From the NCBI RefSeq assembly GCF_004359215.1, contig NW_027152031.1:1480176-1544175 (forward strand): 64,000 nt of DNA, read 5' to 3'. Each line of letters begins with the position of its first letter. Positions within the stretch are counted from its first letter, which is position 1. The translations under genes were made by a program, and so were the position numbers. A model generated the notes under the pieces. It did no database searches, had not been told where the DNA came from, and worked only from the letters and a program-made list of their open reading frames with translations. Of the stretch, positions 1 to 51,501 are shown piece after piece. Source of the stretch: Bremia lactucae (lineage: Eukaryota > Oomycota > Peronosporomycetes > Peronosporales > Peronosporaceae).

Positions 1-390
1 CTCCTAGTGGATTCGGGTGCATCACAAAATTTTGTGAAACTCGCGGCTCTAAGAAAGAGACCGGCGATGTTTGAGTCGCTTTGCCAGGATGGCAAGCGAG
101 AAGAGGCGACCGTTCGTTTAGCGAACGGCGCGCTCGTTAAGTCTGAGGGAGTTCAGGTAGAACTCGCCTTCAGCTTTAGTGACTTCTCTTGTAAAGAGAA
201 GTTCACAGTGCTAGGTATGGAGAGTCCGTATGACCTCATTCTAGGCATGCCATGGTTGGCAAAACACCAACCATGGATAGACTGGCGTACACGCACAGTT
301 GCGAACTCTGCACAGGGCACCGAAAAGGATGTGCTCTTGCGAGAGGCGTATGCAACTGATGTCGTGTCAAACACGTTAAGGGTGCGTTGA
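1..390 (+). pseudogene. Ty3/gypsy aspartic protease fragment (element A1)
   Basis: Retropepsin part of a gypsy Pol polyprotein, which would cleave Gag-Pol in the particle. The frame is open from base 1 and reads LLVDSGASQNF, the catalytic D-S/T-G-A motif. About 75 residues later comes DLILGMPWL, the flap-distal ILG motif of retropepsins, followed by WIDW as in related elements. It stops at 388-390. The RT frame beginning at 625 is in the same phase, but stops lie between them, so the former pol frame is broken. The 5' part of the element (gag, 5' LTR) lies outside the window. Confidence 0.85.
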
Positions 391-624
391 CGGGATGTCG
401 GACGTCTCTAATTTCCACCTAGCTCGTGGAGACTGAGGTAGTGAAAAGGGCAATGACAAATATGTGTCCCATAGTCCTGCACAGAGCCGAGAGCCTGTGG
501 CAGTAGACAGCGATCTGACAGAAGTCACGCGTCGCATGAACCAGCACAGTGCCTAGAGCCTGGTGCGGTTGCAAGGGGTGCCTTAGCCAGGAGTGCAACG
601 GTACCTGCTTCCCAGAAAAAGGTC

Positions 625-1809
625 GTGGTGACTCGAAGAACGAGCACCCGACAGATTAGGACGACCAAAGGCACGTCTAAACGAGTGACCTTTGGATCAG
701 TCTCTAATGAAGAGGACGGGCCTTCGAACGAGGTGTTCGAGGCCGTCAAAGACGAAATTGCGGAGGCATCCTCAGTTGAGGTGCTCCGGCAAGTCTTTAA
801 ATCTGCCGAGGAGATAGTAAATCTCCCGGAGATGTCGTGGGATCTGTTCCTTGCCGAATTAAAGGAAGGAAAGATCCACGAAATAGTCACACCAGTTCCA
901 GAAGAGAACTTGGTGGACTGCTGCTCGTCGTCCACAATGGACGAGAGCGTCCTAGAAACGGACAAAAAGAAGCGGTACGCTGCTCAAGGCTGGGATGCCT
1001 TGAGAGACAGTCCGTTCTTTGAGGTTCTGTGGAAACATCGCGATGTGTTCCCAGAAGAAGTGCCGAGCCGCCTGCCAGCAGATAGAGGCATCGGGCACGA
1101 AATCGACCTCAAACCTGGCACCAACTATTGTGTGACCAGGCAATGGCCGTTGTCGAAAGAACAAGTCGATTATTTTGATGAGTTCTTCGACAAGCGAGTC
1201 AAGGCGGGACATGTGCGTGAGAGCAAATTGCCTCACTGCAGCCAGACCTTTTGTGTTCGTAAAGCCACAGGTGGATGGCGCGTGGCTCATGCTTACAATA
1301 AGCTGAACACGGCGACCATACCGGCGCAAACGCCAATTCCGCGGAAAGATGTCTTGTTGAACTCCATGGGAAAGTCAACTATCTTTTCCGCGTTGGATTT
1401 GAAGGATGGCTACTATCAGGTACTCATGAGAGAGTCCGATGTAGCCAAAACGGCAGTAAGCACCCCAAGCGGTATGCTTTGGGAGTGGCTTGTGATGCCC
1501 CAAGGTTTGAAAAATGCACCAGCGACATTCGAACGAGTGGTGGCTGACGTGATGCGTCAGCCCCTTGCCTAAGCGCCCCATTACGTTGACGATGTCTTCG
1601 TGCATAGTAGGATCGTGGACGGTCTAACAGAAAAAGTGTCGCACAAGCGTCATATAGACGCTGTGTTGATAACTTTGAAGGACGCCCAATTGTACGTCAA
1701 CTGGCAAAAGTGCGTCATAGGGGTCTTCGATATTCCTGTGCTGGGCTGCATCATAGGTAGACATGGTATACGAGTTGACCCAGACAAGGTAAAATCAGTA
1801 AAGGAATGA
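625..1809 (+). pseudogene. Ty3/gypsy reverse transcriptase, broken (element A1)
   Basis: RT core of the gypsy Pol. Family landmarks in order: HEIDLKPGTNY (about 1096), FCVRKATGGWR (about 1250), PIPRKDVLLNSM (about 1335), FSALDLKDGYYQV (about 1387), TPSGMLWEWLVMPQGLKNAP (about 1465-1530) and the catalytic YVDD at about 1582-1593. An in-frame TAA at 1570-1572 lies just before YVDD. The frame then runs on through the RT thumb to a TGA at 1807-1809, where related elements have Trp (IAQWP or ITEWP). No functional protein is possible from this copy. Confidence 0.88.
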
Positions 1810-2278
1810 TCAGTCCCACGGCATGTGCAGGATTTGCGCCAATTCCTAGAGCTCGCTAATTACTTGCATAAATATAGCAAGAATTATGCTGAGCTAACTA
1901 AACCATTGTCAGATCTCCTTAAAAGGACGCAGAATGGGTTTGGTTAAAAGAACAGATGATGCGTTCACATCAGTGAAGCAATCTCTTGTAGAGGCACCGG
2001 TCTTGGCATTGCCAGACGCGGATAAGCCCTTAAGCGTCGTCTGCGATGCAAGTAATTTTGCAATCGGCAGCGCGCTCATGCAGAAGGAAGACGACGGCGT
2101 TGACCGTGTCATCTCTTATCAGTCCCGGCTTTTAAAAGGCGCGGAACTTTATTACCCCGTGCATGACAAAGAGCTTCTTTCAATAAAGTATGCTCTCGTC
2201 AAATTTCGTGTGCACCTATTGGGCACCGAGCGATTTGTGGCTGAAACGGATCACGCATCACTGCGGACCGCAATATAA
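1810..2278 (+). pseudogene. Ty3/gypsy RT connection and RNase H fragment (element A1)
   Basis: Continuation of pol. Bases 1810-1925 read LRQFLELANYLHKYS in the RT frame. A single-base loss in the A-run near 1920 then shifts the frame. From about 1934 the RNase H domain reads VVCDASNFAIGSALMQ (first catalytic Asp), YYPVHDKELLSIKYAL (catalytic Glu) and ETDHASLRT (third Asp region), ending at a stop at 2276-2278. The order RT then RNase H then integrase is the Ty3/gypsy order. Confidence 0.85.
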
Positions 2279-2372
2279 ACTCACCACACCTCTCGCCTAG
2301 AATGGCAAGACGGCTAACCTTCTTCTCTGATTTTAATTTAAAGTTGAATACAAGCCGGGTAAGTCGAATGTC

Positions 2373-4330
2373 TTGGCTGGCGCTATATCGCACAGACGAG
2401 ACTTCGAGGTTATACACCAGGAAAGTGTGTCTAGTTGTAAAACACAATTTCAGCCGTCAACGTTGGCAGCCATGAAGGCATACCACGTGACGAGCTCTTT
2501 AATTAAAGAGAGCTACCGTCAGGACGACCATTGTTGCCTGCTTTTGGATCACTTTGGTGGGCAAAAGGTTTCTTTCCCATCGCACCCGAAAGCTAAGCTT
2601 AATCGCTTAAGCTACAGTGTCAGCGCATTAAGCCTGCACCGTCCAGTAGTGCGCCACTGAAGCCGCTACCGATTCCAACGGATTGTTAGAAGTCAGTTAA
2701 TCTGGACTTCATGTTTTGCATGCCGCCCGATCATAAGAATCGGACGGGGCTCGTCGTTTTTGTAGACAAAAAGCAAAATGGTGCATTTAGCACCATGTAA
2801 GACATCGATCACAGGCAAGAAGGCAGCTCTCTTGTTCCTGAATTATGTATACCGACTACACGGAATGCCCGAGTCCATAGTATCGGACCGGGATCTTCGT
2901 TTTACGTCTGGGTTTTGGCGACATGTGTTCGAGCTGCTAGGTAGCAAGCTCCACATGTCGACCGCAGATCTACCCAGACCGATGGCCAAACAGAACGTGC
3001 CAATAGGGTCGTGGCGGATATCTTGCTTACTACAGCAACTCGTAATGAGTGGAGCAAGCAATTGTTGTTTATAGAGTTTGCTATAAATAACAGTGTCCAC
3101 GCCAGTACGGGTGAGACACCGTTTTATATTAACGGACTGCACCATCCTTGGACGCCAGTCTCGTTTGTGCGCAGCCCAAATCTTAGTCGGGGAGGGCCCC
3201 TCACTATGCTCGGTGCGAAAGAGGGACATAGTTTCGTCAATATGACGATGACCCACGAGGGTATCATCTCAAAGATAGAAACTTGCCCTAGTGACCCTGC
3301 CAGTTTAGCAGTGGTCAATAAAACTACGCCTTATGACCGTCCTCTTGGCGGTATCACAGGCAATTTTGATGCTAAAAGCGTGAGCGAGGCTCAACGCTTT
3401 GTGAATGAGCGATTAGCCATCACACGTAAAGTCCGTGACGCGATGGCAAGCGCACAGGACAAGCAAAAAGAATATGCGGACCGAAATGGTCGCAGAAATA
3501 ATGTACTCTTTAGAGTGGGTGGAAACGTACTATTAAGTACTGCTACCCTATCTAAAAATGCAATTTCTGTTCTACCTGGAGGTACTACGAAGTTGTTGCC
3601 GCGTTTCATTGGGCCCTTTAAGGTGGTTGAAGAGGTTGAAGACCTAAATTATAGGCTCACCTTTCCCCCGTATATGAAAACGCACCCCGTAATTTACGTG
3701 GGTCGTCTGAAACAGTATGTAGACCCAAATGAGGTCACATATTCCCACCTTACTAAGGAGACCGATGATGACGCCGACTGTGAGTCGAGCGTCGTTCGGG
3801 TGAGGGGGGCGGTAAAGGCGAAAAGCTATCGGACCGATGCCTCCTACCACGAACAGGACTTGGAGAGCGAGGGATTTCACGCGAGTAACGCGGATTTCTC
3901 AGCATTATCCGTTCGAAACGGTCCAAGCGAGTCTTCAGGCGTTCATACTCCTGACGAGTCTTCGCTCGGACATCAACGAGATCCGAGGTCAGTCGCAAGA
4001 CTTGACTCTCGAGATCCGCAATACGTCGTTCAGCAGCGCTTAACGCATGGGACTAAAGGGACAAAGGTAAGGCAGCCGCGAGTAGGTGGGCGACATCGCC
4101 ACCCCTATCGGGCGCCACCTGCACTGATGGATGCGGGTGGGAATCTACACTTCCTTGTTGGAAGGTTGCTTGCCCACCGCTTCGTGACGCAAGGGTATCA
4201 GATCCTCGTCCAATGGAAAGGTTACCCGCACACTTTTGACTTTTAGGAACCGATCGATACCCTACGTATTAATATGCCCGGCTTGGTGGCTGTCTATGAA
4301 ATGGAGCACCAGCTGAGTCCTCTTCGCTAG
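2373..4330 (+). pseudogene. Ty3/gypsy integrase with C-terminal chromodomain, broken (element A1)
   Basis: Integrase remnant in at least three frames. The spacer/zinc region is about 2460-2640. The core reads MPESIVSDRDLRFTSGFWRH at about 2865, with the second catalytic Asp in SDRD. A frameshift near 3000 leads into a long frame (3011-4246) with the third-acidic region (LFIEFAINNSVHASTGETPF), the GPF module (RFIGPFKVVEEVEDLNYRL) and HPVIYVGRLKQYV. The C-terminus is a chromodomain (LVGRLLAHRF...ILVQWKGYP) interrupted by TAG at 4243-4245, where the second copy has Trp (DSWEP). The frame then runs to the true end at about 4330. A chromodomain is known to steer integration toward marked chromatin. 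Confidence 0.85.
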
Positions 4331-5254
4331 TCTCAAATGGACTAGCAGAAGTAGCGTTGTGAGAAGAAACAGGGGGTATAGTACCGCCCATGATTTCTTT
4401 CACACGCAAACGGGCGAATTTACTTCGCTGCGACCGCTGTTTCATCGCACTGGAATGCGGATGATTGTGGCGCACGAATTCCGCCTCGTATTGTTCGGGC
4501 GTTTCATTTGGACGCAACACAACCGGAATCGGGAAAATACGCCCAAGCGATTTTCTCTGAGCCCTCCATGATTAAAAGACGCCATAATAATTATTGGCGT
4601 CTACAAGAGCGCGCTCTTGGAGCGACGCTCTTGGCCCATTTCAATGAGGCCATTCAGAGGGAGGGGCCATCTTTGGAATGCCTCCCGTCACATAGCCACG
4701 TTCTAAACGACTGCCTTATGACACCGCCCGAGCACGTTCACGTGTCGTCAGCGGAGCTTTAGGCTCCGAATCCTCTATGTCCGAACCATTATGGATTATG
4801 TTCTGAGCATAAGGCGTTGTGGTTTTACTCACGGAGAAGCGGCTGCGCCTTTATAGGCAGCGCTCTCATTACCTGTCGCTGCGCTATTCAGCGCAGACGA
4901 CGAAACAGCATTTGTAAATGCTGCTGTCTCCATGTTGTGAGCCATGAAAGAAGTTTGGATAGGCAATAATGTGCCATCATTCTTCCTCAGGAGCTCATTG
5001 CCCGCATCACTACTATGAGGTGATGGCAACGGTGTCGACTCATTGTAGTCGACAATGAGCGACGGATCAACATCCTTACTGTTAAAGTGGGATGGATCCT
5101 TTAGCCCTGTTAACGCGGCAGCAGCAGTAGCTGTCGGCGTTTCGACTAAGGCATTAGACGCGGCCGGCAAATTAATGCGGCGCGTGCATTTACTTTGAGG
5201 TTGAGTGGGCGTCTTCGCAGACAACCCACCAAAGTGGCCCCTTTTAAGTGGCAT
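4269..5254 (-). pseudogene. Antisense accessory ORF of gypsy family A, copy 1 (degenerate)
   Basis: On the strand opposite pol, convergent with it and lying between the chromodomain and the polypurine tract. ATG at 5254. The first 141 residues are open: a basic start (MPLKRGHFGGLSAK), Ala/Thr-rich stretches, then VDPSLIVDYNES and LLPIQTSFMAHNM. After stops and a frameshift the C-terminal module reads RPNETPEQYEAEFVR and SKFARLRVKEIM. The same protein reads in the same antisense frame from copy 2 at 50236-51170, which supports real coding. No domain recognised: no CCHC knuckle, membrane segment or known enzyme motif. In this copy the frame runs into the antisense of the chromodomain. Confidence 0.6.
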
Positions 5255-5350
5255 TTTGGCGCCGTGTATGGATTGAGTGAACTAGCGGCGCGTAAAGGTG
5301 CTCGCAGTTCCTAACTCCTCTTTGACGAATTTAAAAATGTAAATTTGTTC

Positions 5351-5366
5351 TTTAAAGGGGGGATGG
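5351..5366 (+). other. Polypurine tract of element A1
   Basis: AAAGGGGGGATGG directly before the LTR start TGTAATGGGC. This is the expected plus-strand primer site next to a 3' LTR. The same tract, with the same upstream context, is seen inverted at about 50109-50127. Confidence 0.7.
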
Positions 5367-5897
5367 TGTAATGGGCTAAAGTTGCACTTACGTAACACAG
5401 TCCCCATTAAGTAGATCAAGTGTACTTAAGGGGATAGTCAGTTACTAAATAATAGTAATTAGACCCAGCACTCGGGTGTGGTGCACATTTGTGACCAACC
5501 CTTGTGGATGTGATGCACATGGTGCAATTACATTAAAGGGATGACGCCCAGCGTCATCCGTTACGCGAGGTATCTAGAAAGATACGCTCGCAATACACAT
5601 TAAAGGTTTTCTATAGAGATAACATTTTAATTGGTAAAAATAAGTATTTGTATTTGATTCTATTAAATATAAATCAGTCTGAAAACTACTTCCTACTTGG
5701 TTAGTGCGCATGAGGAAACGGATTACCGCTCCCGTGACGACTCTTAATCACAGTACTTAGTGTGTTGGGTGAGGCCGCCAACGCGTCCACCACAACTACC
5801 TCACTGCACGCAAGAGAAGCAGGTTAAACCGCTTCCTCGCTGTGCTAGGGCAGGTGTCTAAGTAGAGCGTGGCCGCATTACGACGTGCCCGCCTACA
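5367..5897 (+). repeat. LTR family A, copy A1 (3' LTR)
   Basis: 531 bp beginning TGTAATGGGC and ending GCCTACA (TG...CA), preceded by a polypurine tract. A second near full-length copy is at 34615-35150 and a truncated copy at 45266-45601. Shared landmarks include GATGACGCCCAGCGTCATCC, GATACGCTCGCAATACA and GCGTGGCCGCATTACGACG. Confidence 0.8.
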
Positions 5898-22641: not shown

Positions 22642-25600
22642 TTAAAAGATCCGATAAAACTCTGGCGCGCGGCGACGAGCCCATTTTCTCTCATATTGCG
22701 TCCAATGCGGCCACTGCAGTGCATTTAGAGTGTCGCAGATCTCCGCAGCGAGCTTTTCCTCGGTAATAATCTTGATCCGATCGGCCGGTTCCATGTCCTG
22801 CGCCTTGCGTAAACGCTGTAATCCAAGTCCAAACGCATCATCGTGGCGGTCGTGGAGCAGGGATACATGCAGATACGTAACTGTTTCGACGTCTTCCCAC
22901 TTCTGAAGAGCGGCGTAGACTGTTTCAAAGTCCTTCCAGTGCGCTAAATCGCCTAAAGCACGAGCTTTACGAGCCAATGCATCCGCCAGAATCGCCTTTT
23001 CCTTGTCCTTATCTTTACGCAATTTCATTTTTTTTGCAGGCTCGTCACTAGAGACACTTCGTGTGCCAAAGAAACGGGCGAGATCGTCCTCATTGATAAG
23101 TGCGAGCACAGCATCCGCTGCCTCAATAATCTCCGCCAAGTTGCTACTTCGTAGAGACTCCGAGTCAAAATGATGGAGCTTGGCTTGCAGAACTCGCAAG
23201 TGATTCGGATATTGTGCCACAAGACGCTGCCACGCTGGCAAGAACGTTTTTTTACCAGCAAGCTTGTTCGTTCGCTCAAGCAGAAGGTCACACATGGCTT
23301 CCTGTGTGATCTGTTCTTCTTCACGCTCGTCTGGAAGCTCCTTTGTATCGGCTTTATCGACAGGAATTAACGAAGGAATCACGTACGAAATCTCAAAGCC
23401 ACTCGGTCGTCGGCCACTCCTGCGAGAAAACACACACACGATTTTTAGTCAATTCTTTTCGAATCAATCCAGAAAAAAAATAATCACTTTGATCAACCCA
23501 CCCTTTTAGATCCGCGTTCTGGTAGCCAAAGTGAATACTTCCTTTTAGCACGTCTCCTTTCGTTGAACCCTTAGGCCATTTGTCCTGAGCAGGCTCTCCA
23601 AGAAACAACGCCACGTACTTTTCTATCGATAGGCGCTTTTTGTCCAAAGGTTTCAAGCCCAATGCTACATTGTCTTGGTGTCCATACACTGACGCTTGAA
23701 TCTCCTTGATTTCGTGGTGAAGTTCCAGCATCATTTGTTTGAGTTTCTCTAATTTACTCACACTCTCGTGACGCACTTGCGCTCGAATGAGATATGAACC
23801 GTTCTGCAGCTTCGTGTCATTCCAATACGCGTCTGAAGAGCCCAGATACTGTTTCTTGTGGTCAAAAATCATCATTAATTGCGCTTCAAACGGAGACTCG
23901 TACAGTCGATTATGGAGGAGAGGTAAGTTTGGCACGACTTTACCCGCTTCACTTTTCGTAAAGGGGTACGTGAGTATAAGTTGATAAACTTGACGCTTGT
24001 CTGGAAACTCGTCGCGGCTTGAACTGAGCGGAGAGATCTCAGCTGTAGTGGGACGGATGTGCTGTACATACTTGGTAAAGCTAATCTTAGGAGCCAACGT
24101 CTCGTGGGTTACTGTGCTCGAAATCACGACCTTGTGGGACTCTTCTCCTCCAATGATTACAATCTTCTCTTGGTCAGGTTTAATTCCATGGAAATGAATC
24201 TCCACGTGCACAATCGAGTCGCCCAGTGCACTCCAGAACTGTCCCAAACAAAACTCCGTGGTCAATCCACCCACTAGATCCATACTGAAACCAAGCTCCT
24301 GTCCAGGTGCGAGCACAAAAGCTTTGTGGAAGGACGACGCACTCTGTCGTACAAAGGGCTGAAATTGAAGAGCATCAAACATAAAGAGTTTTCCTGAAGC
24401 ATTCGATTCTACGCGAGAGTTGCAGTCTTGAAGAGGACGTGATATGTGAATATCTGCCCAAGTCGCTCCTTGTGGAGGAGTGACGAAACGACGAATGATA
24501 TGTCCAGGATGGAACTCCGTGCGATACTTTATCACCATTGTCGCATCTTCTGGTTTAATTACAGTGACGGGAATAGTAAAGAGAGCTTTACGACTTGCGT
24601 TTTTCGTATCGTAGGCTACAATCTCGCCATAGTGCACACCTGGTGCCAAGTGTTTCGTCGTCACGAGAGCTTTAAACGTCCTTCCACTGTGCATTAACGC
24701 CATGTTTTGTCCTACATCAATCCAACGCGTCGACGGTACAAGACGGATATGCTGTTCAAAGTGAATTTTGTCCATTTGCGCTGCTTTTTTGTGAAACACT
24801 GGGGTGACGGTGACAGTCACTTCGTTCGTGTCATGAACAAAGTCGACTCGGTCACGGAGGTAAATTCCACGAGAGCTTTCATCGCCTGAAGAAGTTTTAA
24901 TTGCATAGTAAAGAGGAAATTGCTTGGTTCCATCAAATGCGTTGCTACGAGTCAAGTACTCGAACGCTGGCAAGACTTGGATCAGACCTTTGCCTTGAGC
25001 GTACACGTCCACATTTGGTATTTTCATAGCCGTATTCTCCAGCGCGCGACGGATTGAATACGGCGTATAGTCGACTTTAAGGCGTTTTAATCCACTCACG
25101 AGGAGTGCGATATTTCCAGCACAATTCGGGGACGACATGGACGTGCCATTCATTAATTTTTTCTTGTCTAGCGTCCAATTCGGCACTGAAGCAATCGCAG
25201 CTCCTGGGGCACAGATATTCACGCCCACGTCTCCATCAAACGTAGGTCCACGGGACGACCACGTATAAGCCGTGCCCACTAAATCGTTCTCTCGCATGAT
25301 ATACTCACTCTCCATCATCTCGGGCGAAACGTACGCACCGACTCCGAGCATACTGGAAGTTGTGCCACCGGGTGCCCCCACTGTGCCTAGTGCCGGGCCT
25401 TCATTCCCAGCACTCACGACAAACGTCACATTGTGCTCGTCTACGAGTTCATTGCTTAATTCCACAATGCGTCCATAATTATGCAGCGAAGCAAACTCTC
25501 CATAACTCATGTTAACAATGTCGACATTGGCGTCCATGACAGCGAGAATTGCACGACTGAGCGCCGACGTTGTCTCCATACTCCCAAGTCTTGCATCGCC

Positions 25601-26515
25601 AATCTTTACGGCTACAATTTGTGCTCCTGGAGCAACGCCGTTGCATTCGATTTGATCCGGATAATATGCGGCAACGATACCCGCAACATGCGTCCCGTGC
25701 GCTCCAACGTCATTGACAATACTCAACACGTTGCCATTATCGTAAATATTGAGCACAAAATTGAGCTGCGACTCAGTAGAGAACGTCGCGTACTGCCGCT
25801 CGTGTTTAAAATTCGTCATTGCGGGGATTCCAGTAAAATTACCAGTCTCGGTCGTATCTAGAGCTGCACGCCAATTTGTCCCGTCATGAAACACGACGAC
25901 GTCGTAGATCGGTCCTGGATCTTCACGATTCTTCGCAAGCTCTTCCAATTGCTTAAGTTGTGCCTTCAAATCTTCTTTTTGGCGTAACACGGCGGAATCA
26001 GTGGTAGAAATGCTATTGGTTTTGCTCCACTGAACCAGTTGTTGTTGCACTTTATTGACTGCACTTCGTTGTTCGATGTCGAATTTCTCTTGACGTTCTG
26101 TCTTGAGACGCGCGACCAACGGACCAGGGAACAAATGATAGCCAGCGACACTCCCGACATGGTATTTTCCGTCCTGACTCGGTCCCCAGTGCGGATTAAG
26201 CGTCAAGGTGCGGTTATCCGCTAGTTTTAAAAGACCGTCCGTAGCTTCGATGACTGTCGACGTGTCGACGTCTCCCGCGCCTGTGGCATCGACGATGTCA
26301 ATAATCTTTGGGCGTCCGTCTGGCGTCATCTGGAGCCCAATGGCTCCTGGATCCACACCCGTGTCGAAAATAGCTACGATGGCATCGCGACCGTCGTAAT
26401 CCGGATATTGATCGAGGAATCGGTCTGCAAGGGTCTCTTGCTTGGGCAATAGCGACGCCGTCGGGAATGATTTCATTCGACTTGGAATGTGGGCTTTTGA
26501 ATTTGCAATAGCCAT
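22642..26515 (-). CDS. TPP2: Tripeptidyl peptidase II (giant subtilisin-like serine protease)
   Basis: TPP II removes tripeptides from peptide N-termini downstream of the proteasome and forms very large cytosolic spindles. Subtilisin triad (residues counted from the upstream ATG at 26566): Asp68 in AIFDTGVDPG, His290 in GAHGTHVAGI, Ser476 in NGTSMSSPN, with oxyanion Asn388 in SAGNEGP. The LLPKQET...YPDYDGR start and the long insert between Asp and His are typical of TPP II. Two exons: 26515-23502 and 23419-22642, joined across an 82-nt intron (donor GTGGGT, acceptor CGCAG) that restores the C-terminal helical region ending in EFYRIF. Length about 1,295 aa, near the animal enzyme. The start could be 26566, 26515 or 26476; conservation begins just after 26476. 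Divergent from PRMT7. Confidence 0.93.
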
Positions 26516-26622
26516 TTTGATGATATATTTTAGATCTATGACAGGCAAAAGTATATATTCGTACATTGCGTCAAAGATCTAAAATATGTCGTTAAAATTG
26601 CTATTGCAAATTCAGAAGCCCC
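26491..26622. repeat. Inverted repeat across the TPP2 5' end
   Basis: Arms 26491-26536 and 26576-26622 match as inverted copies with about five mismatches in 46 nt. The left arm contains the TPP2 ATG at 26515 and its following codons (MAIANSKA). The right arm carries a copy in which the ATG is lost. It sits inside the shared TPP2/PRMT7 upstream region. Confidence 0.7.
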
Positions 26623-26740: not shown

Positions 26741-29020
26741 ATGTACGCAGGTGTGGACAAGTATGGAGGTACACTAGTTGGAGAAAATCAACCCGATGGA
26801 ACATCACTAAGTGCTCCAGCTTCAAATGTTGGCTGTTCACTTGAAGATGCGATCGAAACAGCTTCTGCGGAAGAGACCGTGGTGGTAGACGTGCCATACT
26901 CGTATTTCGAAGACGAAACTGACCCAAAGTCGGTCATCTCTGGGGTGTCCAAGGTGCTTCTCTCCGCTCAATTGAATCCCGAAGCCGGTGGTCTCATGTG
27001 GGTGGAGCATAGCAATTCTCAAAAAGCTTACAAAAACGTCGTTGCGATGTCTCAGATGACGTCCATGCTCCGCGACCATGATCGAAACGCATGCTATGGA
27101 CGTGGAATTAAGCATGCAATTCAAAAATTTAAAGCTGATAGAGGTTATGCCCCTATAGTGCTTGACATTGGCACAGGCACAGGCCTGCTGTCTATGTTTG
27201 CCGTAACATACGGGGCCGCCCACGTTTATGCGTGTGAAATGTTTGAGCCCATGGCCGAGATTGCTCATCACGTGACACAAGCGAATCATCCAGACAAGAT
27301 TACAGTATTCAAGCTACGGTCGACCGACTTAAAGGTTGCTCCCGATAGAGAAGAAGACCGAGACTTTAAAATGACGTACCACCTCCCACGACGTGCAGAT
27401 TTGCTCGTATCAGAGCTCTTTGATTCGATCTTACTTGGGGAAGCAGTATTGCCAACGCTTCGGCATGCAATGCAGCATCTGCTGATTCCAGATGCTGTAA
27501 TTGTGCCCAAGAGGGCTACAGTGTTTGCTCAAGTTATCGAATGCGCGCCACTTTATCACTTTAATGCTTTCGATGTCGAGTCTACCAGGGGTCCAAAACT
27601 AGCTCGAAGTGATTTGGCTTGGCAATGTAAAGGTGGGAAACCCGCGTTACCATTGCATTTTCGTGCTTTTGAAAACGAGTCGAAATTCTTAACGAACCCA
27701 ACAAAGGTGTTGAGCTTTGACTTTACGAAATCAACATCTGAAGAGGCGACATATGACGAGATTATTGTTGACGTGATACGAGCTGGAACTGTTCAGGCGG
27801 TTCTCATGTGGTGGCACGTGAGTTTTGATGACTGTGACAAAATAGTGTATTCGACCCAATCAAGGGCTCAGAATTGGCAGGATCATTGGGTTCAGGTCGT
27901 CTTTCCTGTCACTGAGAATATCCCCGTGCAGCCTCTTGAAAGACTCGTGTTACGTGCTCATCACGATGACCTTCGCATCTGGTTTGATGTTGAAAGTACT
28001 CTAAGTAACGACAATACACTCACAAAATTAAAGCGCGCTATCGTCACTGAAAAAGAACCGTGCATCTGTGGCTTGCATCTCCTGTGCAATGCTGAGCGAA
28101 TTTCCATGCTAAATGACCGTTCCCGTCGCGAAAGCTATGATGCGTCCGTGTCTTTAGTCGTGGCTGACCTAATAAAGTCCGAACCTTTGCGTCAACTCTC
28201 GTGTCTTGACATCAGCGATGGATCTTTTGGTGCGCTACTAGCAGCTTCGCACCCAGAGATTAGGAGCGTGACGTCAATTGAGTCGAAAGCAGTATCCGCA
28301 CGGATTTTTGAGCAGATATTATCGTATAACAATTGTCCAACCGAGGTTCTTCACAGTGGTGTTAAAGGTTTGTGTCCTGAACACTTGCAAGGAGACGCCA
28401 CAAGCGTCGATTTTCTCATTGGAGAGCCATTTTACTATTCCATGCAGAACCTTCCTATTTGGCAAGCCTTTAACTTTTGGCTACGACGATCAGCTGTGGA
28501 TTCATTACTGCACCCAAAGGCACGTGTGTTACCAGCTCGAGCCCGTGTACTGGCCCAAGCTGTGCAATTTGAGCATTTGCACCAAAGTTTTGGTGCAGTT
28601 GGCAATGTCTGTGGCTACGACCACAGCTTCTTTGATCGGTATCAAGACGACTACTACATTCGCAATTTTCCATTTCCAGTCTACATGTATGCGTTTGAGC
28701 AGGCTTCAATTATCATTGAAATGGCTGCTTTGGACTTCATGCACCCGATTCACTCGATAGATACGAGCAATGTGATAGAGCTGAAGAACTCTGCAGCGAA
28801 TGCTGTGATTGTATGGGTCGAATATGTCTTGGATGTTGCTGGCCAGTACGTGGTAACAACAGGCCCTGCTGTACGCTACGCAAAGCAGCTCATTCGTTTT
28901 CTCCCACCCGTGCCGTCACTAGCATGTGTTACAGGGTCGAAGCGTATTGTGAAAGCTACGTTCTGTTTTGACTCATTGGAAGGAACGATCGATATGAACT
29001 TTGAAACCGAGAATGCATGA
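26741..29020 (+). CDS. PRMT7: Protein arginine N-methyltransferase 7
   Basis: Transfers methyl groups from S-adenosylmethionine to arginine; PRMT7 is the family member that makes only monomethylarginine. Tandem methyltransferase modules, 759 aa. The first holds motif I VLDIGTGTGLLS (residues 140-151), the acidic ribose-binding residue Glu166 in ACEMFEP, and the double-E loop SELFDSILLGE (Glu225, Glu234). The second (from about residue 450) is degenerate: LDISDGSFGALLA in place of motif I and GEPFYYSMQNLPIW in place of the double-E loop, as usual for the pseudo-active half of PRMT7. An extra N-terminal segment of about 80 residues precedes the conserved part. ATG 26741 has an in-frame TAG just upstream. 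Single exon, divergent from TPP2 with about 225 bp between starts. Confidence 0.92.
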   Translation: MYAGVDKYGGTLVGENQPDGTSLSAPASNVGCSLEDAIETASAEETVVVDVPYSYFEDETDPKSVISGVSKVLLSAQLNPEAGGLMWVEHSNSQKAYKNVVAMSQMTSMLRDHDRNACYGRGIKHAIQKFKADRGYAPIVLDIGTGTGLLSMFAVTYGAAHVYACEMFEPMAEIAHHVTQANHPDKITVFKLRSTDLKVAPDREEDRDFKMTYHLPRRADLLVSELFDSILLGEAVLPTLRHAMQHLLIPDAVIVPKRATVFAQVIECAPLYHFNAFDVESTRGPKLARSDLAWQCKGGKPALPLHFRAFENESKFLTNPTKVLSFDFTKSTSEEATYDEIIVDVIRAGTVQAVLMWWHVSFDDCDKIVYSTQSRAQNWQDHWVQVVFPVTENIPVQPLERLVLRAHHDDLRIWFDVESTLSNDNTLTKLKRAIVTEKEPCICGLHLLCNAERISMLNDRSRRESYDASVSLVVADLIKSEPLRQLSCLDISDGSFGALLAASHPEIRSVTSIESKAVSARIFEQILSYNNCPTEVLHSGVKGLCPEHLQGDATSVDFLIGEPFYYSMQNLPIWQAFNFWLRRSAVDSLLHPKARVLPARARVLAQAVQFEHLHQSFGAVGNVCGYDHSFFDRYQDDYYIRNFPFPVYMYAFEQASIIIEMAALDFMHPIHSIDTSNVIELKNSAANAVIVWVEYVLDVAGQYVVTTGPAVRYAKQLIRFLPPVPSLACVTGSKRIVKATFCFDSLEGTIDMNFETENA

Positions 29021-29740: not shown

Positions 29741-31618
29741 TTAGTTGCCAATTTGCTTGTCTGTTAAACGCCATTTCATTGTCTCGAGTTCTCTTAACAG
29801 CACCAAAGTCACATTTTTTTGAATGTCCAATGACCACACTTTCGTGCGAGAGCGGGTTACAAGTTGGTGTAAAATGTCGGCATTTTCTTCACTTGTTAGT
29901 GTAGCTACAACACTGTGCAGGAATGTCCACAACTCCAGCGGGGTATCACTTCGATAAAGTTGTGCCACATTGACAATTGTTAAGAAATAGGCGCCCAAAT
30001 CAATCGCTAGTTCTGTTAGCACTGGACTTTTCAATTCAGGCGTCACCGTTGACAACATGGACTTTTGTGTGAAAAACTGCTGTACGAGTTCCAAGAACTC
30101 GAGTGCCTCGGCATCTTCGGGCTCGGTTTCAAAGCCCAATTTGCGAGCTGTCTCGATATTCTGCTTGACTTGTGCAGCTGCGTTGATTCGTGCACGAAGG
30201 CGGCTCACAAATTTCCAGCGCGTAGCTGACTGAAATGGAGGACCACGGACCGACGCACCCGGTGCCAAGACATTGATCGGTGGAAAGACACGGCTCTGCG
30301 CAAGCGAGTACTCTAGACTGACGTAATCGTCAACAACCGACACAATCCGTTCCATAAACTCGGTAGCGATTTCTGAGCTATCTGGAGCATCGCCTAATAC
30401 GAAAGACGTGAGCGAAGGCCCGCCTTCTTTTTGAGTCGAACCTTTAAATTGAGCTGAACGTTCCATCAACACAGTGTGGGCACTAAGGCTTGCGTGAGCC
30501 GCACGAGGCAGCTTAAGGGACTGTATCAATCCCTCTACTACCATAGTATGCGACGCCAAGTCGTCATATACGATAACACTTTGATCAGACTTGCCATTGT
30601 GCATGAGAAACTCGGCCACTGCACAGCCCGTGAATGGTGCCAAATATTGCAATACCGGCGAGTCTCGGTCGCTCGACGCAATTATTGTCGTGTAGGGTAA
30701 AGCCTCTGATTGCTTGAGTGCATCAATAATTTGATGAATTCGAGACAAGCTCTTGCCGATACAGACGAACACAAACTGCGGCGGCTGCTCTCCGTTTGCC
30801 TTGGCTTGAGCAACCTGGTAAGCCATCATTTCTAGTGCTATACGCGTCTTGCCAGAGCTTCTTGGTCCTAAGACTGCAAACCGATGTCCGTGCGCCATTG
30901 GATGGAGACAATCGACTGCCACTAGTCCCGTCTTAAATGGCAAGTGAAGAGGGGTACGTGCGATAAGACCGGGTACGCTCTGTGTACCCCATGTAACTTT
31001 GATGCGATCATTTGCTGTTGCAACGTCGCTTGGTGCTTGCGTATCGAATTGATGTGGTCGACCGATCGGGTCTATAACGGCGCCAGCAAAGGCTGCGACG
31101 CTCCCAGGGATCTCGAGCTGCTTGCAATGCAGCGTCACGTCCATATTCTTCATCACGGGTTCGGTGCCACGCGCAGACAGAAGCGCTATGTGCACCACTT
31201 TTTCCTCCATAAACAGCACAAGCCCCTGACTTATAGAGTGGCCAGACGCGTCTGAAACGTTTACAACGCTGCCGATCGTTGCGTGACGTAGCCCTGAGAC
31301 GCGTGCCAATCCATTTTGCACGCCTATGATGACGCCACTAATTGGTAGCTCTGCCTGAGTATTTAAAAGCACATCATCTGTGGGTAGCGGTGAATGTTCG
31401 TCCTCGGCGAGCTTCATAAAATCCAGCATCTGCTGGGCTAGCGCGGATTCCGAATCATCGAGGCTTGCGCGAGAATTGATTGCACCACACGCGTGAAAAT
31501 TACGGTTATGCGTGGAAAAAGTGGAACCCCAATAAACGCTACACCAGCGTTGGCTCTGTGGCGTCCAGAACGAAGAGCGTAGAGCCCGCGAGACCCATTT
31601 GGTCCGGAGGTACCACAT
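29741..31618 (-). CDS. F1-ATPase alpha-subunit-like protein, probably mitochondrial (625 aa)
   Basis: Divergent relative of ATP synthase subunit alpha. N-terminal beta-barrel: SGVIIGVQNGLARVSGLRHA. P-loop: GPRSSGKTRIAL (canonical alpha GDRQTGKT). Walker B: SVIVYDDLASHT (canonical IIYDDLSKQA). Then VFPPINVLAPGASVRG, the region of the alpha-subunit arginine, with altered spacing, and a C-terminal helical bundle (LRARINAAAQVKQNIE, LDIQKNVTLVLLREL). The start at 31618 gives MWYLRTKWVSRALRSSFW, an Arg-rich amphipathic leader like a mitochondrial presequence. The frame is open to 31765 and beyond, but that would overlap the ASCC2 start. Oomycete mtDNA is known to carry atp1, so a divergent nuclear copy is likely a paralogue, not the main subunit. 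Function not established. Confidence 0.82.
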   Translation of the reverse strand: MWYLRTKWVSRALRSSFWTPQSQRWCSVYWGSTFSTHNRNFHACGAINSRASLDDSESALAQQMLDFMKLAEDEHSPLPTDDVLLNTQAELPISGVIIGVQNGLARVSGLRHATIGSVVNVSDASGHSISQGLVLFMEEKVVHIALLSARGTEPVMKNMDVTLHCKQLEIPGSVAAFAGAVIDPIGRPHQFDTQAPSDVATANDRIKVTWGTQSVPGLIARTPLHLPFKTGLVAVDCLHPMAHGHRFAVLGPRSSGKTRIALEMMAYQVAQAKANGEQPPQFVFVCIGKSLSRIHQIIDALKQSEALPYTTIIASSDRDSPVLQYLAPFTGCAVAEFLMHNGKSDQSVIVYDDLASHTMVVEGLIQSLKLPRAAHASLSAHTVLMERSAQFKGSTQKEGGPSLTSFVLGDAPDSSEIATEFMERIVSVVDDYVSLEYSLAQSRVFPPINVLAPGASVRGPPFQSATRWKFVSRLRARINAAAQVKQNIETARKLGFETEPEDAEALEFLELVQQFFTQKSMLSTVTPELKSPVLTELAIDLGAYFLTIVNVAQLYRSDTPLELWTFLHSVVATLTSEENADILHQLVTRSRTKVWSLDIQKNVTLVLLRELETMKWRLTDKQIGN

Positions 31619-31763
31619 GTGTTTATCTAGCAGTGTAGAAAATTCATAATTTAGCTTTATTCGAACATACAGGTCTTTGAATTCTAAAAGTTTTCGTGGT
31701 GCATGTATACCTTCCGCATAATCGGATGGACTGGTATACCTCACGGTCCGATATTTATTAAGC

Positions 31764-33737
31764 ATGAGCCTTGAATCGACGATCTCACCGCTCGTCGCTT
31801 CTAGTGACACCGAGCTACAGTGCTATCTCTCAGATGCCTGTGCGATTGAGCATCTTTCAATCCTTCTTGATGACTTCTTCACGCGCGGGATAGCGCTACA
31901 AACGAATCTTGTTGGCAGCCAAGACGTCGACGTCAACGCCACCGCACTATCGATATCAGGTCGCGCCGTATTCTCTCTGTTTTCGCGGCTTCTGGATGCT
32001 CCACAGCTACTACAGCAAGCGTATGAGTCCAGCTTGCTGCACGTGACACGGCTAATCCCGTTTTGCCAGCTCTATGGTAGTAAGAATCAAGAGACAATTG
32101 CCGAGCTTTTGGAAGCAGTTTGCGACAATGTTGCTGAATTTCCCGCAACTTTAACTGTCCTACAGCAACTGTACATTCGGCAACTCAACGATCTCTTCAA
32201 AGCTGTGAGACAAGCTGACGTAATGGATCTCATACACCGCTACTACGAGCTAAGTCTGTCCGTAGGTGGCATGACAACCGCAGAATCGGTACTGAAGATT
32301 CTTTTGCTAGGCAAAAAAGAGCTGTCAAAAGAGCTAAGAGAACAGAGTCATTCATTGCTTTATAGACTCGTGCAGTTTTACGAGGTAGTGCTTCCGACTT
32401 TGCAGCGGCAATTGTCGTCTTTGGACAAGAAAACGGCATCTCGAGTAGTTTTAGTGATAGCAGAGATCAGATATATTTTGTTGCTTGTTCTTGGGCGCTG
32501 CGTCGATTTTGAGTTGGACAAGCCTCTCCAATCGGGAGTGTGTGAAGGTAAGGTGCTGGCTGGATTCCACACATTAATCAGCGGATGCGTCGACGAAGAC
32601 GCAGAACATGGCTCGTATTTCAGTGATTTATGGTTTCTATGCGAGTACAAGGACAAAGTCTCGGCATTTTTTCATCGCCACGAATTGGACCAGGAGAATT
32701 TATCGTATTTAGCATTAATGATCGAGCAGCTCCCGAGGCGTCGATTCCTTCCATCGTTGGTAATTAAAGAGTCTCTTGCTATAGAAGAGGTCAAGTCGAA
32801 TAGCGGTTTTGAGGAGATTGAACGTCAGGCAATGGATTTGACTGCACTGGTGCACCAAGTAAAAGACCTTTTTCCTGATTTGGGAGAAGGGTACATTGAG
32901 CTCTGTTTATTGAGTGCTGATTCACAAGTAGAGACGGTGATTAATTTTTTATTGGAAAGTAACCCTCCGCCTGTCCTTATTGATGTATCACATGATGTAA
33001 AACCCTCGGATATCGAATTTAAGCGTGTTGAAGCACTTTTGAAAGGTAATTTATTGCCTGCTTACGAAAATAAAAAGCTGGATCCGAATCGAGTATGGGT
33101 GGGTAAGAAAGCAATGGAAACGAGCTACGATCCACAGATTGAAGTAAAAGATCAGCAAGTAGCTAACAAGACCAAGGAACTTGTTGCCATGTATGAGGAA
33201 GAAGATGACTATGCCTATTCGAGTGGCACCGACCGTGATGGTGGCTTTGACAGCCGAGGCGATGGGGTGGCTGTCCTCGACGAGTACGACGACGATTACA
33301 ATGACGAGTTTGATGACTTTGTGCCGTTTAGTATTCGCGATGGCGGACTTGGAGATAGTCAGGATGTTGTTCGTGAGCAGAATCGTCGGATTCGTGCAAA
33401 GGAGGAGAAAGATGCCTTTTGGGAAGGCATGAAAAATAGAAACCGTGAAAGCGTTTCGCTTAAGGCTGAAGAGATGGATTACGACGAAGAGAAAAAGGAA
33501 AGTGATAATTTTCGTGATAGGATTTTGCGCTCCCCCGCTGCTGCTGAATCGACACAGAGCTCATCTAATTCTAAGATTTCAAATCCTCGTCAAAAAGACA
33601 AAACTCATGGAGAGAAGAAATCTTATGAGCTGTTAACACCGCAACAAATGCAGCGTCAGCGAGCGAAGAAAGACAAGAATAAGGCTAAGATCGCGAACCA
33701 TAATCGGAAGGATCGTGCATTAAAGAAAATGGGCTAA
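31764..33737 (+). CDS. ASCC2: ASCC2-like protein with CUE ubiquitin-binding domain (657 aa)
   Basis: Likely homologue of activating signal cointegrator 1 complex subunit 2, the ubiquitin-binding partner of the ASCC3 helicase in alkylation-damage response and in splitting collided ribosomes. Residues 1-340 are helical, as in the ASCC2 N-terminal domain. A CUE domain lies at about 364-402 (VKDLFPDLGEGYIELCLLS, then INFLLESNPPP). The C-terminal half is charged: VWVGKK, YDDDYNDEFDDF, then a basic tail KDKNKAKIANHNRKDRALKK like that of ASCC2. Single exon. An Inr-like CCTCACGGTCCGATATTT lies at 31739-31756. Divergent from the F1-alpha-like gene with 145 bp between ATGs. Confidence 0.85.
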   Translation: MSLESTISPLVASSDTELQCYLSDACAIEHLSILLDDFFTRGIALQTNLVGSQDVDVNATALSISGRAVFSLFSRLLDAPQLLQQAYESSLLHVTRLIPFCQLYGSKNQETIAELLEAVCDNVAEFPATLTVLQQLYIRQLNDLFKAVRQADVMDLIHRYYELSLSVGGMTTAESVLKILLLGKKELSKELREQSHSLLYRLVQFYEVVLPTLQRQLSSLDKKTASRVVLVIAEIRYILLLVLGRCVDFELDKPLQSGVCEGKVLAGFHTLISGCVDEDAEHGSYFSDLWFLCEYKDKVSAFFHRHELDQENLSYLALMIEQLPRRRFLPSLVIKESLAIEEVKSNSGFEEIERQAMDLTALVHQVKDLFPDLGEGYIELCLLSADSQVETVINFLLESNPPPVLIDVSHDVKPSDIEFKRVEALLKGNLLPAYENKKLDPNRVWVGKKAMETSYDPQIEVKDQQVANKTKELVAMYEEEDDYAYSSGTDRDGGFDSRGDGVAVLDEYDDDYNDEFDDFVPFSIRDGGLGDSQDVVREQNRRIRAKEEKDAFWEGMKNRNRESVSLKAEEMDYDEEKKESDNFRDRILRSPAAAESTQSSSNSKISNPRQKDKTHGEKKSYELLTPQQMQRQRAKKDKNKAKIANHNRKDRALKKMG

Positions 33738-34614: not shown

Positions 34615-35150
34615 TTTAACGGGCTAAAGTTGCCCTAATGTTACACAGTCCCCGTTAAGTACACTTGGTGTACTTAAAGGGATGGTCAATTACTAAATTA
34701 AAGTAATTAGACCCAGCACTCGAGTGTGGTTCACATTTGTGACCAACCCTTCTATATGTGATGCACATAGGTGCATTCACATTAGGAGGAATGACGCCTA
34801 GCGTCATCCGCTACGCGAGGTATCTGGAAAGATACGCTCGCAATACATATTAAGTGTTATCTATAGAGATTACATTTTGATTGATTGGTAGAAATAGGTA
34901 TCTATATTTAACACGAACAAATATAAATTAGTCTGAAAACTACTTCCTACTTGATAAGTGCGCACGAGGAGCCGGATTACCGCTCCCGTGACGACTCTTA
35001 ATCACAGTACTTAGTGTGTTGGGTGAGGTCGCCAACGCGCCCACCACAACTACCTCACTGCACGCAAGAGAAGGTGGTCAAACCGCTTTCTCGCTGTGCT
35101 AGGGTGCGTGTCTAAGAAGAGCGTGGCCGCATTACGACGTGCCCATCTAC
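34615..35150 (+). repeat. LTR family A, copy A2 (solo or truncated LTR)
   Basis: About 536 bp alignable end to end with LTR A1 (5367-5897), starting at a mutated TTTAACGGGCTAAAG and ending GCCCATCTAC. No gypsy coding sequence adjoins it; copia sequence follows directly. Confidence 0.78.
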
Positions 35151-46846: not shown

Positions 46847-48027
46847 CTATGACAAAAAAGTACCCTTTGACATGCCATCAATGATTACGTCTTTTCGTGG
46901 TATCGGCGTTTGAGCCGCTGCCGTTGTAGCGTTCAATTTGTTGAACGCATGTACAATCCGCCACGCTCCTGTTGCTTTCCGCACAGAGAAGGTCGGAGAG
47001 TTATATGGGGAGGTCAACATGCTCACATGGCCCTCAGCTAAGGTGTCGGCAAAAATTTGTCGGTCGCTAGTACTTGTCCACAATGGTCCATGCTTCATAT
47101 TACAGTATTTCGAACATGTTTATTGATCGGTTTCGTGTCGAGTGCTTTTGTCCTTAGGCAACTCGCACGTTACGGATTCTGGGAATTTATCCTTGGATTC
47201 GATCAAATCCTTAAGACTCCCAGGATTGAGACTTGAAACGTTCAATTCGAGTATTTTCGCAAAGGACACTTTCGTCCATCGATGAGCTGCTGAGAACCCG
47301 TTCGCTTTCAGGAAATACTATTGCCGACCGAATATCGGCCACGTACTTGTCGTCTGTGATAATTACACAGACCTGATTGACTTTGCCATTACGCAGAGCA
47401 CGCAGAAACCGTTTCGGCTCAAGCGTTGGCAAATGACTTATCTTCGAAAAATTAATTTTGGAGGCGTAATCAGATCGGTGCACAAGCGCCTTCACTTGAT
47501 CTGTTGTTCCCCAAGACATTTAACATCTCAGTTTTATCATTTAAACTTATTTCTTAAGGTTCCTGGGACCCTTTGAACAAGTTTCTTGGTTCTTATTCCT
47601 CAAACATTTTGGGACGTCTTCCTTACACATTTATGAAGCATTCCCCCAACGGCGTCAAATTATGGTTGCGCAACCACAGCGAGATCCTCCACGATCGACT
47701 TTCCCAGTCAATTTTTTTATTTTTTGCACCGTCTCCTATCGACATGCGTATCAAATTTTCTTGGATGTTGCTTTCTGAACAAGCATTCATGTTTCAATCC
47801 ACCCGACTTAATCGAGTGGTCGAACTTCGACACTGCATGTCGTTTGCACAGCCGTCGGAATCTAACTCCACAGTGTGATGGGTAGTTATACCGAGGTCTT
47901 GTGCAGTCTAGTACGACTGCACAAGACTCAAGCGCACTGTCATCCTCGTTAGAGGTATATCGCCCCGAGCCGATTGAGCCTCAGTCTTATATCGAATGAA
48001 ATTGCTAAACGCTCCACAATCAATTAG
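46847..48027 (-). pseudogene. Ty3/gypsy pol fragment (protease tail to RT), minus strand
   Basis: 47519-47211 reads ISHLPTLEPKRFLRALRNGK and ERVLSSSSMDESVL, matching 61400-61600 of the plus-strand element. 47098-46847 reads FSVRKATGAWRIVHAFNKLN and PIPRKDVIIDGMSKG (RT). 48000-47880 aligns with the protease-RT linker (GACTGCACAAGACCTC). It is truncated before YVDD at 46847. Confidence 0.75.
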
Positions 48028-48536: not shown

Positions 48537-50108
48537 TGGTAGCACTTCGAAGGCCGTTCAGTTGCCTACGCACGTTCCATCCAACATGAACATGTTGGAT
48601 GAAGAGGAAAGGAGCTAGCAAGCCCCTCAAGAATGCTATCACGCAACATTTGTTCACTCATTTGAGCGACCGTGAATGGAGAGCGGACAAACGCATGAGT
48701 TTGGTCGTAGGTGGGACAGCCGTTGGCGCCATGCTGTTCACTTTGAACATAGCTGAACAGCATGCGGCCATAGCCGAGTTCATACAACATGGACTCAACG
48801 GCGAAGAAAAAGTAGCCTTGCTTTACCAGCAAGGCTCTCAACACGCAGAGTTGTTCAGAGAACTGAGAGCTCGACATTTGGAACTGCTGAGACAGCAATT
48901 ACAGGCTGCTAGCGGACCAACGCTTCCGCGTCGAACCGAAAGCCTTAAGATCGAAATCTTAAAGTTTAAGGCAGTCGAAGAGAGTCGCCATTGAAGCTCG
49001 CCGCGTCAATGATAATGCGACAAAAGTGAAATTTGGAACGTCTATCTTAGCTAGACGTGCCAAATATTGAACCTTAGGGTTTAAGCTTACAACCCATTGG
49101 TTTTTAGGTCGTATGATGGCTTCCAGACCCAGCGCAAGGTAAACATTTGAGCCGCCACGTGCCGAATTCAGGGCTCGAGCTGTGGTCCAGGATTTTCTTA
49201 AGTAGGGCAAGCGTGACCTTCACGCTTATGCCCAAAATACAGATCTATAATTAGTTGTATCGTGATTCATCCAACAGATGAACAAACACAGGTAACTGTG
49301 TTTATTAAAGTTTTTGCAGACGGTCCTGTTAATACCCCACTGTTCCAGCTTGAACGCGAGACGCTAGACCAAGCGATCTATGTAGCAAAATAGGAGGACT
49401 TCAGCCCTCAACAAGCTTTCGTCCACTCTGGAGCTTGTCATTTTCAACTAAGCACATCCTACAATTGCCAGCAATTTGTAATTTTTCTTGAAAACAGAAT
49501 TTGGTAAAGAAGCGGTTTATGAAGGTCAACATAACTAACTGCCCCAGGTGATGAGACCAACCTCATCACCTTGCAAATAAATGTGTCAAATAAGTTGCCA
49601 CTTAAGTCCCTAGTTGGTTTTAGGGCGTCAAAATATTTAATTCGACACCAATCGTTAGAAGATCGCAGACTCAAACTTATTAAGTGCGATATTTATCTAG
49701 CGAGGATGACAGTGCTCCTAGCAACAGGCGCACCTGTAACAGTAAAGACACGTGTGGTTGGTATTTAATACAGGTTAACGGGTAACAGTACGATGATGAA
49801 TTCATCGGACTGAATTTGGACGACAAATTTGATGTCATCCATGGTTTATCATGCTCAAAAAGTTCGAGCCCTGCATAAATTGGCATCATTTAGTCGTGAC
49901 GATACCTGCCTATCGTTCATCAAATGACCATCTGATGAACGTCTGGGAGCTTCCACAAGCGTGTGGATGTCCTACGAGTGAGTGTGATGGCCTCACTTGT
50001 GGATCGGCCGTTTGCACGACTGCACAAGACCTCAGTGTAAGTACCCATCACACTGTGGCGTTAGACACCGACGGCTGTGCACAAGCACATAAGCGTTGAA
50101 GTTTGACT
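48537..50108 (+). pseudogene. Ty3/gypsy gag-protease remnant (element B3)
   Basis: PBS at 48537. The gag N-terminus is open at 48599-48994: MSLVVGGTAVGAMLFT, EQHAAIAEFIQHGLN, TESLKIEILKFK. The rest of gag is decayed. Protease pieces follow: LATGAPVTVKTRVV (49720-49760), then NVWELPQACGCPTSECDGLT (about 49935-50000), matching 60870-60930 of element C2. Homology with C2 stops at about 50108, where the inverted polypurine tract of another element begins. Confidence 0.75.
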
Positions 50109-50127
50109 ACTCCCCCCCTTTAAGAAC
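50109..50127 (-). other. Polypurine tract of gypsy A copy 2, without its LTR
   Basis: On the minus strand, AACAAATTTGTTC-type context equals that before LTR A1 (GTAAATTTGTTCTT, then AAAGGGGGG). The expected 3' LTR is missing; gypsy B3 sequence on the plus strand abuts directly. Confidence 0.6.
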
Positions 50128-51170: not shown

Positions 51171-51401
51171 GCCTCAGTTGGTGCTCCTTTTCATAGGCAG
51201 CCACCAAGGCGGGCACATCAATACGAAGGGTATCGATCGGTTCCCAAGAGTCGAAACTCTTCGGATAACCTTTCCATTGGACGAGGATCTGATAACTTTT
51301 TCCTCACGGAGCGGTGACAAGCAACCTTCCAACAAGAAAGCATTGATCCCCACCCGCATCCATCAGTGCAGGGGGCGCCCAATCGGAGTGACGATTTCTT
51401 C
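51165..51401 (-). pseudogene. Ty3/gypsy chromodomain C-terminus (element A2), cut by gap
   Basis: Minus-strand reading near 51265-51165: GYPKSFDSWEPIDTLRIDVP then ALVAAYEKEHQLRPIC and stop. This is the same tail as element A1, but with Trp kept where A1 has TAG. The upstream part is lost in the N gap at 51402. Confidence 0.75.
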
Positions 51402-51501
51402 NNNNNNNNNNNNNNNNNNNNNNNNNNNNNNNNNNNNNNNNNNNNNNNNNNNNNNNNNNNNNNNNNNNNNNNNNNNNNNNNNNNNNNNNNNNNNNNNNNN
51501 N
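51402..51501. other. Assembly gap (100 N)
   Basis: Exactly 100 N. It falls inside the chromodomain region of a repeated element, so its true length and even the join may be uncertain. Confidence 0.95.

Follow-up and report, generated by a model that had tools for sequence, protein, structure and literature searches.

The window analysed here, 64,000 nucleotides of the Bremia lactucae genome, holds two dead copies of what we read as a genuine antisense gene from a chromodomain Ty3/gypsy element, together with ordinary host genes (Table 1). The same antisense protein relic is present in both copies, which lie in opposite orientation and both retain the MP(L/P)KR start, as the earlier note on this DNA had correctly reported; five inverted repeats (I1, I2, I4, I6 and I7) connect them within the window. 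Pieces of the copy 1 pol relic matched Pfam families for protease, reverse transcriptase, one RNase H, the integrase C-terminal SH3 and the chromodomain. The ATG of the antisense gene of this copy is 114 nt from the 3′ LTR. An extra LTR of the copy 1 family lies elsewhere in the window (34617–35150), and no antisense-gene match was found near it. Copy 2 resembles the other copies only as far as 50111, the polypurine tract/LTR edge; the sequence past this point (window 50018–50112) was found again, inverted, at 47814–47908 (84%), so that copy 2 adjoins a different LTR or another element. Among the host genes, the annotated ORF starts of the ATP synthase-type and CUE-domain genes overlap. The flavin amine oxidoreductase gene (488 codons) lies between repeats, and by eye we take it to be protoporphyrinogen oxidase-like.

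Table 1 Features of the 64-kb window (positions are window coordinates; residue numbers refer to the 493-aa protein P0045)
Feature	Position	Strand	Basis and remarks
Antisense gene of copy 1, whole relic	3753–5254	−	ATG at 5254, stop at 3753–3755; tblastn with P0045
Helical core (residues ~165–290)	4365–4742	−	52–77% identity among six full-length proteins; modelled helices
Coiled-coil part, opposite the pol linker (residues ~376–450)	3885–4109	−	Helix 391–446 modelled; 51–79% identity
R/S/P-rich tail (residues ~451–493)	3756–3884	−	S/R/P make up 26–33 of the last 45 residues in six proteins
pol relic of copy 1	1–4330	+	5′ part cut by window start; TAG at 4328–4330; Pfam matches on pieces
Stretch common to pol (+) and antisense gene (−)	3753–4330	.	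578 nt
Antisense leader, 3′ LTR to ATG, with polypurine tract	5255–5368	−	Sequence
3′ LTR of copy 1	5369–5896	+	87% match to LTR copy at 34617–35150
Antisense gene relic of copy 2	50236–51398	+	Five pieces in three frames; cut by N run 51402–51501
Tripeptidyl peptidase II	23393–26566	−	Pfam; ordinary host gene
Protein arginine methyltransferase	26741–29020	+	Pfam; ordinary host gene
ATP synthase alpha/beta-type	29741–31810	−	Pfam; ordinary host gene
CUE-domain protein	31764–33737	+	Pfam; ordinary host gene
Flavin amine oxidoreductase	53913–55379	+	Pfam

Both antisense genes in the window are relics. In a tblastn alignment with P0045, residues 1–134 match copy 1 at 5254–4832 (76%) and residues 139–493 match it at 4820–3756 (81%); the relic is spread over two frames by one change near 4820–4832 and carries more in-frame stops. 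A straight reading from the ATG meets a stop at codon 142 in copy 1 (window 4829) and at codon 37 in copy 2 (50346), so that the stretches proposed earlier as open frames, 4269–5254 (minus) and 50236–51170 (plus), are both interrupted. The antisense frame had also been described as ending at the convergent pol stop. It continues past this point in both copies: in copy 1 through a frame piece at 3753–4052 (minus) to a stop codon of its own, and in copy 2 as a protein match that reaches 51398, followed by the N run. The relic match past the pol stop runs antisense through the chromodomain and the pol linker for approximately 0.58 kb.

The host element is very abundant in the B. lactucae genome (115.9-Mb assembly, 220 contigs). 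A protein search of this assembly gave at least 103 matches (98 of 5,950 candidates scored), and a DNA search scored 40 out of 2,329 first-look candidates. Seven of the 49 matches that cover at least 400 of 429 residues are stop-free, in a tally that counts N runs as open and leaves outside it matches 97–103, all of which are shorter. One genome copy has 493 open antisense codons. Another, L015, has 429 open antisense codons with the 3′ end of pol open on the opposite strand; the Pfam Chromo family scored above cut-off in L015 and in a further copy, L009, and the integrase SH3 was also found at the L015 pol end. The open copies show that the intact gene and pol overlap tail-to-tail by approximately 578 nt, with the first ~300 antisense codons beyond pol and the remainder inside the overlap. 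Among the copies examined, which were collected by searching with this antisense region, the antisense gene occurs in the element no less widely than the pol end. The fetched copies are star-like, with a mean distance of 0.093 (pairs sharing ≤200 positions were assigned 0.3), and look like the descendants of a single burst. A candidate separate subfamily at contig C11 turned out to belong to this same family and to carry a deletion, and fourteen divergent matches formed no grouping that could be called subfamilies. We also rejected a 600-codon ‘ORF’ of L009 (1489–3291), which joins the antisense gene, N runs and the antisense of a gag-like CCHC region on the other strand; it is a chimaera or an assembly gap, and misleading in ORF counts.

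The open antisense frame goes beyond chance expectation. Over the first 925 nt of the 493-codon copy the antisense frame contains 0 stops, compared with 15 and 25 in the other antisense-strand frames and 16, 15 and 16 in the pol-strand frames, although this test, like the alignment and dN/dS tests below, sets the pol stop at codon 309 and the stop of the 493-codon copy is at approximately codon 302, so that about seven overlap codons were treated as non-overlap. Directly past the end of the 493-codon frame, stops grow dense. From base composition, the probability that 493 codons remain open is 3 × 10−9; with pol residues held fixed and codons drawn from the element’s own usage, the probability that the antisense frame is open over 186 overlap codons is 0.0034. 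These figures bear on whether there is a gene at all, or only an open frame left by constraint on pol and spread by one amplified master copy. Part of the frame is indeed shared with pol, and fetched copies that look like one burst mean that the open frame counts once. Against this, pol residues alone would seldom leave the overlap open, and approximately 300 codons lie beyond pol.

Relatives of the protein were found in other lineages. A protein search with one intact protein returned seven relatives (approximately 8,000 top candidates scored), and profile searches returned 40 and 26 among the matches listed (approximately 8,000 top candidates each). The full-length relatives in the database have 480–559 aa, one of them named Peronospora effusa, and a P. 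effusa entry of 481 aa represents 19 members; shorter relatives carry the names P. farinosa and P. matthiolae. No relatives were confirmed in viral and prokaryote contigs. The earlier note had also named a captured gene as an option, and for a protein without relatives in any known retroelement protein family an origin outside the element is conceivable. However, the relatives listed in the three protein searches are Peronospora-named entries or unnamed ORFs only, those of P. effusa are distributed over many contigs in a repeat-like manner, and no host homologue appeared among the approximately 8,000 top candidates scored per search. We regard capture of a host gene as the least probable of the explanations weighed here. 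In two further lineages the gene also sits in this position, as indicated by flanking sequence read into two of the relatives: the extra N-terminus of protein P0005 matches a translation of LTR edge, polypurine tract and leader (62–69% over ~41 residues, two copies), and the additional C-terminal residues of the P. farinosa protein match the pol SH3 region when this is translated from the antisense strand (65–67% over 60 residues, two copies).

Start, core and coiled coil are common to the relatives at 44–75% identity. In an alignment of six proteins of full-length layout (480–495 aa, with the extra N-terminus of P0005 trimmed), pairwise identity was 45–74% over the first 308 residues, where each pair differs by 3–11 length changes, and 44–75% over the rest. 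The tail is alike in outline, being shorter in P0007 and divergent at its end in P0005. Of the 15 pairs, 14 showed higher identity in the core than in the N-terminal part, and 14 likewise showed higher identity in the coil, which lies opposite the pol linker, than in the chromodomain-facing stretch; the limits of core and coil were set after the alignment and the model had been inspected, and their window coordinates are arithmetic from the tblastn match of P0045. The second result is contrary to conservation driven by pol alone, which predicts the reverse. Together with relatives that are open over their full length in other lineages, it further counts against an open frame arising as a by-product of pol constraint and amplification, which we consider very unlikely. 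As a yardstick, decayed copies in this genome acquire approximately 0.128 stops per percent protein divergence, and a neutral frame at 48–64% identity would be expected to hold approximately 5–7 stops (probability of none, ~0.001–0.01 per lineage); the stop-free relatives are weaker as evidence than such values imply, because the other lineages are represented by database proteins, and it is open frames that enter such listings. This protein conservation between lineages is the strong evidence for an antisense gene, and from it we infer that the antisense protein frame has probably been held by selection across downy mildew lineages.

Codon tests were also made within this genome. Copies 1 and 2 differ over the first 308 codons by 33 synonymous and 104 nonsynonymous changes (56, 44 and 37 differences at codon positions 1, 2 and 3), giving a dN/dS of 1.00, which deprives of weight the argument, made in the earlier note, that differences between the copies are silent in the antisense frame. 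For the six-frame comparison proposed there, frames were assigned by coordinate arithmetic; pooled dN/dS was 0.82 in the antisense frame (600 of 2,346 pairs, 69 copies) and 0.80–0.89 in the other five, that is, no synonymous excess in a test of low power. Within this genome, no synonymous excess was found in the antisense part beyond pol, and codon-phase counts on 54 copies gave no clear pattern for the antisense part or for pol itself. Where pol overlaps coil and tail, the antisense frame had a dN/dS of 0.66 and the pol frame one of 1.15, and another pol-strand frame likewise gave 0.66; upstream pol reached a modest 0.58 in its own frame. Given the star-like copies, most changes probably arose after insertion, and because pol too lacks a codon-phase pattern, we read these tests as weak, not as negative.

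A missing synonymous excess within the genome is what would be seen if the antisense RNA mattered, regulating pol RNA through pairing or small RNAs, and its ORF were incidental; non-coding antisense retroelement RNAs are known (passages in PMC7264820). A stop-free antisense frame would be unexpected for such an RNA, as would a core and coil kept in six proteins at 44–75% protein identity, and we consider this explanation quite improbable. We instead hold, with high confidence, that the antisense ORF would prove protein-coding and selected.

The intact protein has approximately 490 residues and consists of a basic N-terminus, a long disordered stretch, a helical core, a coiled coil and an R/S/P-rich tail. 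The first 30 residues include 7–9 K/R in each of the six aligned proteins. Two structure models, both of low confidence, gave a mostly disordered whole protein (pLDDT 46) with a long helix at residues 391–446, and a core made of helices (pLDDT 63). A Pfam scan of 18 members at E ≤ 10 matched nine families, and these matches include no known domain that points to a nuclear or regulatory role. Two candidate assignments were rejected: homology to coiled-coil-type families, for which there were weak matches only (best TPR, E 0.0043, 4 of 18 members), and a secreted effector, for which there was a single RXLR match (E 0.1, 1 of 18 members). A search of solved structures gave one match only, at E 0.46, and none for the P. 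effusa protein; no fold match reached E ≤ 0.001, and the best match to a PEG10 capsid-like fold had E 8.7. The basic start and the R/S/P-rich tail are only suggestive of a nuclear or regulatory role.

An initiator-like YCAYTYY, the motif defined as the oomycete initiator (passages in PMC3599244), is present in 50 of 58 readable leaders, with 42 matches at −38; this count is taken over related, non-independent copies, and one shuffled leader holds the motif by chance in 6.6% of trials. In the course of events that we infer, an antisense transcript would begin next to the 3′ LTR, at the initiator-like motif, and would be translated into the ~490-residue protein, which would enter the nucleus, self-associate through its coiled coil and serve as an accessory regulator acting on the RNA or chromatin of the element. 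We give this reading as a whole, a genuine antisense gene making a nuclear, self-associating accessory regulator of the element, about an even chance; provided that the ORF is protein-coding and selected, a nuclear regulator is slightly favoured. The protein may instead be made and act in the particle or integration complex, for example as a helper of gag or integrase. A helical core and a coiled coil would suit a structural protein, and the gene, among the copies examined, matches the pol end in prevalence; yet an antisense transcript would be an awkward source for a particle protein, the basic start and R/S/P-rich tail are at least equally suited to a role in the nucleus or on nucleic acids, and apart from the PEG10 value given above the fold search offers no match to capsid or integrase. 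We rate a role in the particle as rather unlikely. An antisense ORF kept in the element family and encoding an accessory protein, one of the options put forward in the earlier note, is our best reading as well, although of the grounds given there neither the silent changes nor the end at the pol stop was borne out.

Comparable genes are known from plant Ty3/gypsy elements as aORF-3R, among them maize Grande gene23, rice RIRE2, Silene Retand (TRP28) and bean PvRetro13; passages in PMC7264820 and PMC11963269 describe them as antisense, situated between pol and the 3′ LTR, kept in numerous copies and with relatives across species. The Grande product is nuclear, and the promoter of its transcript lies upstream of the antisense gene (same passages); the role of the plant antisense genes is given as not determined (passages in PMC7264820, PMC11963269 and PMC8365987). 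The Bremia gene shares this layout, being antisense to gag-pol and placed between pol and the 3′ LTR, and likewise has many genome copies and relatives, in its case in Peronospora entries. It is unlike Retand in that TRP28 (PF04195) is absent from the nine Pfam families matched by the 18 members, and in that it belongs to a chromodomain element, whereas Retand is a non-chromovirus (passages in PMC11963269). It also extends 0.58 kb into pol, and the word ‘overlap’ is absent from the text of the aORF-3R papers PMC7264820 and PMC11963269. On sequence grounds, the case is best read as an aORF-3R-like layout with a protein family that is apparently unrelated to the plant ones.

Outside plants, brtn of Boty, a gypsy element of Botrytis cinerea, is an additional antisense gene (passages in PMC7264820 and PMC8365987). 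The Bremia gene resembles it as an antisense gene of a non-plant gypsy element. No Botrytis-named entries were present among the profile-search matches listed. HBZ of HTLV-1 pairs through a coiled coil (leucine zipper), and the resemblance of the Bremia protein to it is one of layout only; bZIP is absent from the Pfam matches of the 18 members, and the coiled-coil helix is modelled. Passages in PMC7264820 and PMC11963269 describe HBZ and other retroviral antisense proteins as nuclear and regulatory, with expression from a promoter that lies within the 3′ LTR. Nearer to the present host is Chronos, a Ty3/gypsy element of Peronosporales and Pythiales that has a chromodomain at the pol end and a second, archaeal-type RNase H beside the Ty3 RNase H (passages in PMC5348765). 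The Bremia element is like Chronos in host group and in the chromodomain at the pol end (Pfam, L015 and L009); Chronos has two RNase H domains, whereas the degraded copy in the window showed one in the pieces up to integrase. The word ‘antisense’ is absent from the text of PMC5348765, and no description of oomycete LTR elements with an antisense ORF was found among the matches listed in the open-licence PMC literature.

A more far-reaching account, which we put forward tentatively and at somewhat less than even chances, is that the antisense gene overprinted the pol linker and chromodomain, leaving approximately 190 dual-coding codons in which the antisense coil, and not pol, would set the sequence, and that its product would be a nuclear regulator independent of the plant and fungal genes. 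An unrelated oomycete case would suggest that antisense genes arise repeatedly in LTR elements, and a repeated origin would turn the question of what they do into one for LTR elements in general. Because silent third-position changes in one frame alter the other protein in this register, the extended overlap with pol would provide a natural test. Gypsy elements account for 53 of the 91 assembled Mb in B. lactucae (passages in PMC6570648), so that a gene governing their amplification would bear on the growth of such pathogen genomes.
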